Positions 3 to 1,589 of a stretch of 35,538 nt of DNA are shown here, piece by piece. The stretch covers positions 1 to 35,538 of the forward strand of contig PBQF01000045.1 in the NCBI GenBank assembly GCA_002724975.1. The letters are read 5' to 3'. Each line of letters begins with the position of its first letter. Positions within the stretch are counted from its first letter, which is position 1. The position numbers and the translations under genes were made by a program. Source of the stretch: Parcubacteria group bacterium (GTDB taxonomy: Bacteria > Patescibacteriota > Minisyncoccia > Phycocordibacterales > GCA-002724975). The notes below the pieces were generated by a model, which searched no databases, was not told the DNA's origin, and saw nothing but the letters and a program-made list of their open reading frames with translations.

Positions 3-137
3 TCTGATGGCTACCCCCGCGTGTTTAGTGTTGCTTGCAATAGTAGCGATCAGTGGTTGAATGGCGATTACGATGATGGCTGTAGCACCTTATGGGGTGA
101 TGATAACCGCATCGTATTCGTGAAGCCCCGCAAGTAA
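3..137 (+). CDS. C-terminal fragment (truncated by window edge) of a possible DGR target / C-type-lectin-fold variable protein
   Basis: Open frame from the left edge: SDGYPRVFSVACNSSDQWLNGDYDDGCSTLWGDDNRIVFVKPRK*. Dense run of NNY codons (S,C,N,D,G,Y) before a conserved-looking DNRIVFVK tail. Confidence 0.5.
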   Translation, partial: SDGYPRVFSVACNSSDQWLNGDYDDGCSTLWGDDNRIVFVKPRK

Positions 138-189
138 CATCAATAAATTGCTCACCTGTTATGCAAAGGAAAGGAGGAAGGAAGTGGAG

Positions 190-230
190 AGGCTTCAGCA
201 TTAACTTGCTGGAGCCCTCGTTTATTTTAT
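190..230 (+). terminator. Hairpin downstream of the edge ORF (GGCTTCAGCA-TTAACT-TGCTGGAGCC, then T-rich)
   Basis: 10-bp stem with one G-T wobble, followed by ctcgtttatttta. Confidence 0.5.
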
Positions 231-496: not shown

Positions 497-1060
497 TTGA
501 GAAATTTTAATCAAAAAAGAGAAGAAAGAGCCAGAGTAAATGAAGCCATTAGAGCTAATGAGCTCAGGGTTCTAGGCCCAGAAGGAGAGACTTTTAATGT
601 CTTAAGTAAGGAAAGTGCCCTTTCAAAAGCAAGAGAAATGGGATTGGACCTTATAGAAGTCTCCCCCAACGCCAATCCTCCTGTTGCTAAAATAATGGAT
701 TATGGTAAATTTCTCTACGACCAAAAAAAGAAAGCCAAGGAAGCTAAAGCCAAATCTCATAAAACAGAGACGAAAAACGTTCAAGTCAAGATAGGTACAG
801 GAGAACATGATTTAGAGTTGAAAGCCAAAAAAGCTTCTGAGTGGCTGAAGGAGGGTCACAGAGTAAAGTTTGATTTATATCTAAGGGGAAGGGCAAAATA
901 TTTGGACAAGAAATTCCTCGAAGAAAGAATGGAGCGAATGCTCAAACTCATAACCGAAGATTATAAAGTAGCTGACGGACCTAAAAAAAGTCCGAAAGGA
1001 ATGACTTTGGTTTTAGAAAAGGGCAAGGCCGCAACAAATAAAGAAAATGAAAACAAATAA
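497..1060 (+). CDS. infC: Translation initiation factor IF-3
   Basis: VNEAIRANELRVLGPEGETFNVLSKESALSKAREMGLDLIEVSPNANPPVAKIMDYGKF; followed by rpmI-rplT; TTG start. Confidence 0.96.
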   Translation: MRNFNQKREERARVNEAIRANELRVLGPEGETFNVLSKESALSKAREMGLDLIEVSPNANPPVAKIMDYGKFLYDQKKKAKEAKAKSHKTETKNVQVKIGTGEHDLELKAKKASEWLKEGHRVKFDLYLRGRAKYLDKKFLEERMERMLKLITEDYKVADGPKKSPKGMTLVLEKGKAATNKENENK

Positions 1061-1232
1061 AGCATATACAAAAAGATTGAAGGTGACCAAAAAGGGAAAA
1101 ATTCTTGCAAGAAAGAAGGGTGGTAATCATTATAATGCAAAAGAGTCACGAGGAACTCAATTAAAGAGGAGAAGAAAAGTTGAAATTGTTTTAACAAACA
1201 AAAATAGAAGAAGGTTTTTACCAAATACCTAA
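1047..1232 (+). CDS. rpmI: 50S ribosomal protein L35
   Basis: Short basic protein between infC and rplT: MKTNKAYTKRLKVTKKGKILARKKGGNHYNAKES. Confidence 0.93.
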   Translation: MKTNKAYTKRLKVTKKGKILARKKGGNHYNAKESRGTQLKRRRKVEIVLTNKNRRRFLPNT

Positions 1233-1244
1233 TCTGACTTAAAT

Positions 1245-1589
1245 ATGACAAGAGTTAAAAGAGGAACAACTAAAAACAAGCGGAGAAAAAACATCCTTAA
1301 GAAAACTAAGGGTTATCGTAATGCTAAAAAAAGTAAGAAGAAGCAAGCCAAGGAAGCAATAATGCATGCTGGTAGCCATGCTTTTAATGACAGAAGAAAG
1401 AAAAAAAATGTTTTTAGAAGATTGTGGCAGGTAAATATAAATGCCGCTCTTAGAAAAGAAGGATCAACCTACTCTAAATTTATAGGAGACTTAAAGAAAA
1501 AGAAGATAGAAGTTGATAGAAAAATATTGGCTCAAATTGCCAGAGAAAACCCCGATACATTTAAAAGAATTTTAGAGGAAGTCAAGTAA
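1245..1589 (+). CDS. rplT: 50S ribosomal protein L20
   Basis: MTRVKRGTTKNKRRKNILKKTKGYRNAKKSK...RLWQVNINAALRKEGSTYSKFI. Confidence 0.97.
   Translation: MTRVKRGTTKNKRRKNILKKTKGYRNAKKSKKKQAKEAIMHAGSHAFNDRRKKKNVFRRLWQVNINAALRKEGSTYSKFIGDLKKKKIEVDRKILAQIARENPDTFKRILEEVK

Follow-up and report, generated by a model that had tools for sequence, protein, structure and literature searches.

The first bases of the stretch of DNA analysed here (the window, 35,538 nucleotides of contig G000:C45 from a Parcubacteria group bacterium) very probably encode the variable repeat (VR) at the C-terminal end of a Paceibacteria-type target protein of a diversity-generating retroelement (DGR), and the codons of this tail would most likely have been written by mutagenic retrohoming. 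In such a mechanism, proposed for this organism by homology, the reverse transcriptase (RT) would copy a template-repeat (TR) RNA and misread its A residues, after which the cDNA would replace the VR and turn AAC and AAT codons into NNC and NNT. We infer that this copy of the tail was itself DGR-written, that its TR and RT are, or formerly were, on DNA missing from the genome bin, and that the product would be a diversified binding protein. Present homing activity of this VR stands at about even chances: the tail would be either the target of a DGR on the missing DNA or a frozen leftover.

The truncated tail and its homologues

Base 1 of the window is also base 1 of the contig, and the contig edge cuts the target ORF inside the tail. 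The translation proposed in an earlier note on this DNA was recovered exactly, as 44 residues followed by a TAA stop codon in an intact reading frame. The pattern of codons ending in C or T described there also held: 34 of the 44 codons do so, compared to a mean of 49% for the window genes, and none of 4,432 44-codon stretches taken from these genes contained at least 34 of them. The GC content of the tail is 0.50 versus 0.375 for the window. Neither Pfam, PHROGs nor the PDB sequences yielded a match to the 44 residues, and phage records searched for the tail yielded none either.

A 10-bp-stem hairpin with CTCGTTTATT directly behind it follows the stop codon. The hairpin had previously been noted as accompanying the putative VR; it is present, but its candidacy as a DGR-specific element was rejected since a 10-bp stem with a T-rich tail fits an ordinary intrinsic terminator. 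It is thus likely a Rho-independent-terminator-like site of the target gene, and terminators are also found right behind other targets devoid of a downstream RT. The genes infC, rpmI and rplT come next and take the place that TR and RT occupy in most relatives. Unlike in these, no TR or RT was found downstream of the tail and, consequently, any DGR serving this VR would act from upstream or from elsewhere.

Table 1. Coordinates of the features in the window and in related loci.
Feature	Position	Strand	Basis
Truncated DGR-target gene, C-terminal 44 codons and stop (probable)	window 3..137	+	translation; homology to VRs of complete DGRs
Variable repeat within target-gene tail (probable)	window, about 3-134	+	homology to VRs of complete DGRs
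10-bp-stem hairpin and T-rich stretch, likely intrinsic terminator of target gene	window 191..216	+	
infC-rpmI-rplT, context outside the feature	window 497..1589	+	Pfam
infC (IF-3)	window 497-1060	+	Pfam
rplT	window 1245-1589	+	Pfam
RNA element, examples	L041:6934-7074; L042:5363-5503	-	alignment
RNA element, examples	L051:5895-6035; L165:6686-6826; L178:6692-6832	+	alignment
Targets with RNA element directly downstream	L178:5968-6870; L188:6200-6820		
DGR-type RT C-terminal fragment (L202)	G001:C31:1-290		
DGR-type RT C-terminal fragment (L203)	G001:C36:3797-4067		
Same RT C-terminal stretch at two contig starts	G147:C2:1-160 (L208); G147:C7:1-160 (L207)		

A protein search detected related tails in 40 of the 297 genomes of the same order, with a best non-self E-value of 1.7e-6 and a threshold of E <= 1 per genome, at which the weakest of these matches may be due to chance. 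Twenty of the places with tail matches and further neighbourhoods were examined together with 37 related loci taken from a named collection, mostly CPR MAGs (Parcubacteria, Paceibacterota, Nealsonbacteria, Nomurabacteria, Wolfebacteria, Harrisonbacteria and similar). Many of these loci are complete DGRs, in which a target gene ending in such a tail is followed a few hundred bases downstream by an A-rich second copy, the TR, and then by an RT carrying the GLPLGNLTSQ and YADDF motifs. TR and RT usually lie on the same strand 3' of the target, within about 1-2 kb; the target is inverted relative to both in L050 and L151, and target and RT are on separate contigs in genome G235. Of the 800 mismatches counted over 44 TR/VR pairs, 759 (95%) are opposite an A on the coding strand, a figure that describes pairs pre-selected for at least 75% of such mismatches and is no independent test. 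The DGR reading of the tail was therefore right in kind, the tail being homologous to VRs of same-order cassettes whose TR/VR differences are nearly all opposite A.

A codon alignment of the window tail with 26 TRs and 25 VRs, scored at first and second codon positions, places the tail with the VRs and not with the templates. The tail differs at 13 of 26 template-A sites (50%), compared to a mean of 7% (maximum 23%) for left-out TRs and 59% (range 27-85%) for VRs; the segment is thus, on this alignment evidence, a VR and not a TR. Non-A sites differ at 8 of 30 positions (27%), while VRs average 10% (range 0-32%). Because this non-A divergence is high as well, the excess at A sites does not reach significance on its own (p = 0.06, with templates from relatives only). 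A distant lineage, an alignment shift near a one-codon insertion or some decay may account for the divergence. Ten columns hold AAC or AAT in most relatives' templates; there the window has TAC, CGC, AGT, AAT, AAT, GAT, GAT, ACC, GGT and AAC, with 7 changed codons, 3 unchanged ones and a C or T at all 10 third positions. The TGT column, an insertion covered by no template, was left out of this count. The end of the tail, DNRIVFVK, had been described as invariant-looking; its R-[FIW]-V-F part is indeed conserved among relatives, but the codons that line up with its D and N are variable in them.

Two further features of the relatives' loci were observed. In L043, L044 and L050, a second target architecture joins the VR-bearing domain to a conserved N-terminal stretch of ~450 amino acids that starts near MEKHPLH. 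In addition, many paceibacterial DGRs contain a strongly conserved structured RNA of ~115 nt between target gene and TR, consisting of two hairpins with 33 predicted pairs, 14 of which show compensatory changes across 14 sequences. This element may belong to the template RNA. The four loci tested showed no match to Rfam 15 families, a literature search found nothing on this element, and a short motif used to seek it in the window gave no match.

Missing partners of a probable variable repeat, active or frozen

The bin to which the contig belongs comprises 1.24 Mb in 92 contigs, with an estimated completeness of 92.4% and contamination of 4.7%. The earlier note had reported neither a TR nor an RT in the window, which is correct, and had proposed to look for a near-identical copy of the tail and an RT gene in the genome; the entire 92%-complete bin holds neither. 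BLASTN of the tail against the bin matched only the window itself, as did a 120-nt A-degenerate template pattern in which any non-A may be A (3 mismatches allowed); viral contigs scanned with this pattern gave no match. RVT_1 is absent from the bin, and an order-specific RT profile found no match there while recovering its positive controls G233, G235, G119, G147 and G244. The N-terminal part of the target, including the conserved domain upstream of the VR, was not found elsewhere in the 92 contigs; the bin therefore lacks the DNA next to the contig edge. How VR and TR repeats break assemblies is illustrated by G068, where the VR contig and the TR+RT contig begin with an identical 55-nt stretch. 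Two contigs of G147 also start with the same RT C-terminal stretch, which suggests several near-identical DGR RT copies that break the assembly of that genome. The DGR interpretation stands for the kind of sequence, by homology to VRs, and not for a working DGR, given that TR, RT and the remaining target gene are absent from the bin and that the footprint of this tail, taken alone, is no more than suggestive of A-specificity.

The absence of an RT from the bin would fit a lineage that once had a DGR, lost its TR and RT, and kept its target as last written, now a fixed or decaying gene. Such a history, which falls only slightly short of an even chance, has the same origin as our preferred explanation and differs from it solely in present activity. 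G001, the one other genome of this genus, has no recognisable target but contains two C-terminal pieces of DGR-type RTs, broken by stops or a frameshift. The first lies at the start of a contig and is preceded by disrupted sequence; the second is internal to a contig, frameshifted and with unrelated sequence upstream. At 96-98% completeness, G202, G257 and G047 bear targets and no RT, and the target of G257 is frameshifted. A second target in L178 retains the conserved RNA element behind it, with TR and RT gone. From these cases, it seems that members of this order can lose the retroelement and still keep a target. The raised non-A divergence of the window points in the same direction. Conversely, the tail frame is intact, and the DNA upstream of it is demonstrably missing from this incomplete bin.

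L188 resembles L178 in having a target with the RNA element directly downstream and no recognisable TR or RT behind it, and its target is, in addition, frameshifted; both loci are apparent instances of DGR erosion. Targets in near-complete paceibacterial genomes lacking an RT (G202, G047 and possibly that of the window) might keep a VR-like divergence at template-A sites either as a fixed binder retained once the retroelement was lost or through rewriting in trans by the RT of another replicon or cell, a suggestion that we put forward as rather unlikely.

Predicted fold of the target and other possible origins

DGRs are common in the Paceibacteria (CPR), and targets of the present type occur throughout this group. 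In the relatives, the target is a protein of about 200 amino acids with a predicted C-type-lectin-like C-terminal domain. A shared domain upstream of the VR, WKTIKLGT...LCPAEVGPQLRLQY.DQPKGEWL...MEPI.DSDG, has no Pfam match. An AlphaFold model of the homologue L160, built from a 22-row alignment that included the window tail, reached a mean pLDDT of 91. C-type lectins (Mincle, NKp65, BDCA-2, langerin) make up most of its best PDB matches, at E-values of about 0.1 and above, and the C-terminal domain of Bd2740 is also among them with a weak E-value. A C-type-lectin-like fold is predicted for the target family from matches that are weak yet consistent and that concern this full-length homologue; of its own target, the window contains the last 44 residues only. 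The modelled fold would agree with the survey of Roux et al. (2021, PMC8144416), in which annotated VR regions adopt C-lectin folds.

Homologues of the target domain outside the CPR were observed in Bradyrhizobium (L189, L190, L191) and in two IMG/VR contigs (L063, L064). The Bradyrhizobium tails are nearly identical among themselves, and neither a DGR RT nor a TR was found in their fetched flanks; the target domain thus also exists without signs of diversification, and domain homology alone is no proof of it. On these grounds the window tail could belong to the same lectin-like domain family without ever having been a DGR target. We deem this improbable, as the window tail retains W-L-N and W, motifs of paceibacterial VRs that are absent from the Bradyrhizobium tails, and shows the excess of C/T-ending codons and the pyrimidine third base at every template-AAY column.

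Still less probable is an assembly artefact or a contaminant, in which the first bases of the contig would be a misjoined repeat of another population. The position of the tail at the very contig edge, its GC content above that of the window, the contamination estimate and a bin size twice that of its sister would be compatible with such an error. However, replacement of A would raise the GC content in any case, no second copy of the tail exists in the bin, and the tail continues into its own stop codon and terminator. The remaining contig also fits the genus, its rplT being single-copy in the bin and closest to that of G001 (76% identity). Finally, although contigs of relatives also break within TRs (e.g., G068:C1), the notion that the segment is a TR was rejected and has a negligible probability, since A is missing at half of its template-A sites when TRs retain it at 93% of them on average, and no RT lies behind it.

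Relation to known systems

The preferred reading, a DGR-type variable tail, would make the window segment a truncated but ordinary example of a well-described kind, to judge from its sequence. The prototype is the DGR of Bordetella phage BPP-1 (mtd, brt). The same principle would be expected here, with A-directed replacement acting on a C-lectin tail, whereas the phage system targets a phage tail protein and comprises an accessory gene along with dedicated elements behind the VR; none of these is demonstrated for the window.

Roux et al. (2021, PMC8144416) describe a DGR clade confined to Patescibacteria and report that the targets of CPR usually lack other recognisable domains. The systems of this 'DGR clade 2' would be the closest known to the window tail: the host group is the same, the variable tail is homologous, and a putative C-lectin-type variable domain in targets lacking other recognisable domains would be shared. 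The tail departs from them in that only the VR end is present, TR and RT being absent both from the bin and from the position directly downstream where most relatives have them. The VR does lie at the 3' end of its target, ending in a stop codon and aligning with VRs of complete DGRs. Remote and multi-target DGRs likewise have a VR apart from TR and RT, as in the relative G235, but here there is no RT anywhere in the bin, so that a remote arrangement is indistinguishable from a lost one.

With the window, the list of likely DGR targets grows by one, from a genus in which the other genome carries broken RT remnants. VR and TR repeats break short-read assemblies, and surveys centred on the RT miss targets that are separated from it; Roux et al. 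(PMC8144416) state that remote targets would escape their own approach. Should orphan targets prove common, they would offer a way to ask whether a fixed lectin benefits lineages after the loss of its diversifier.
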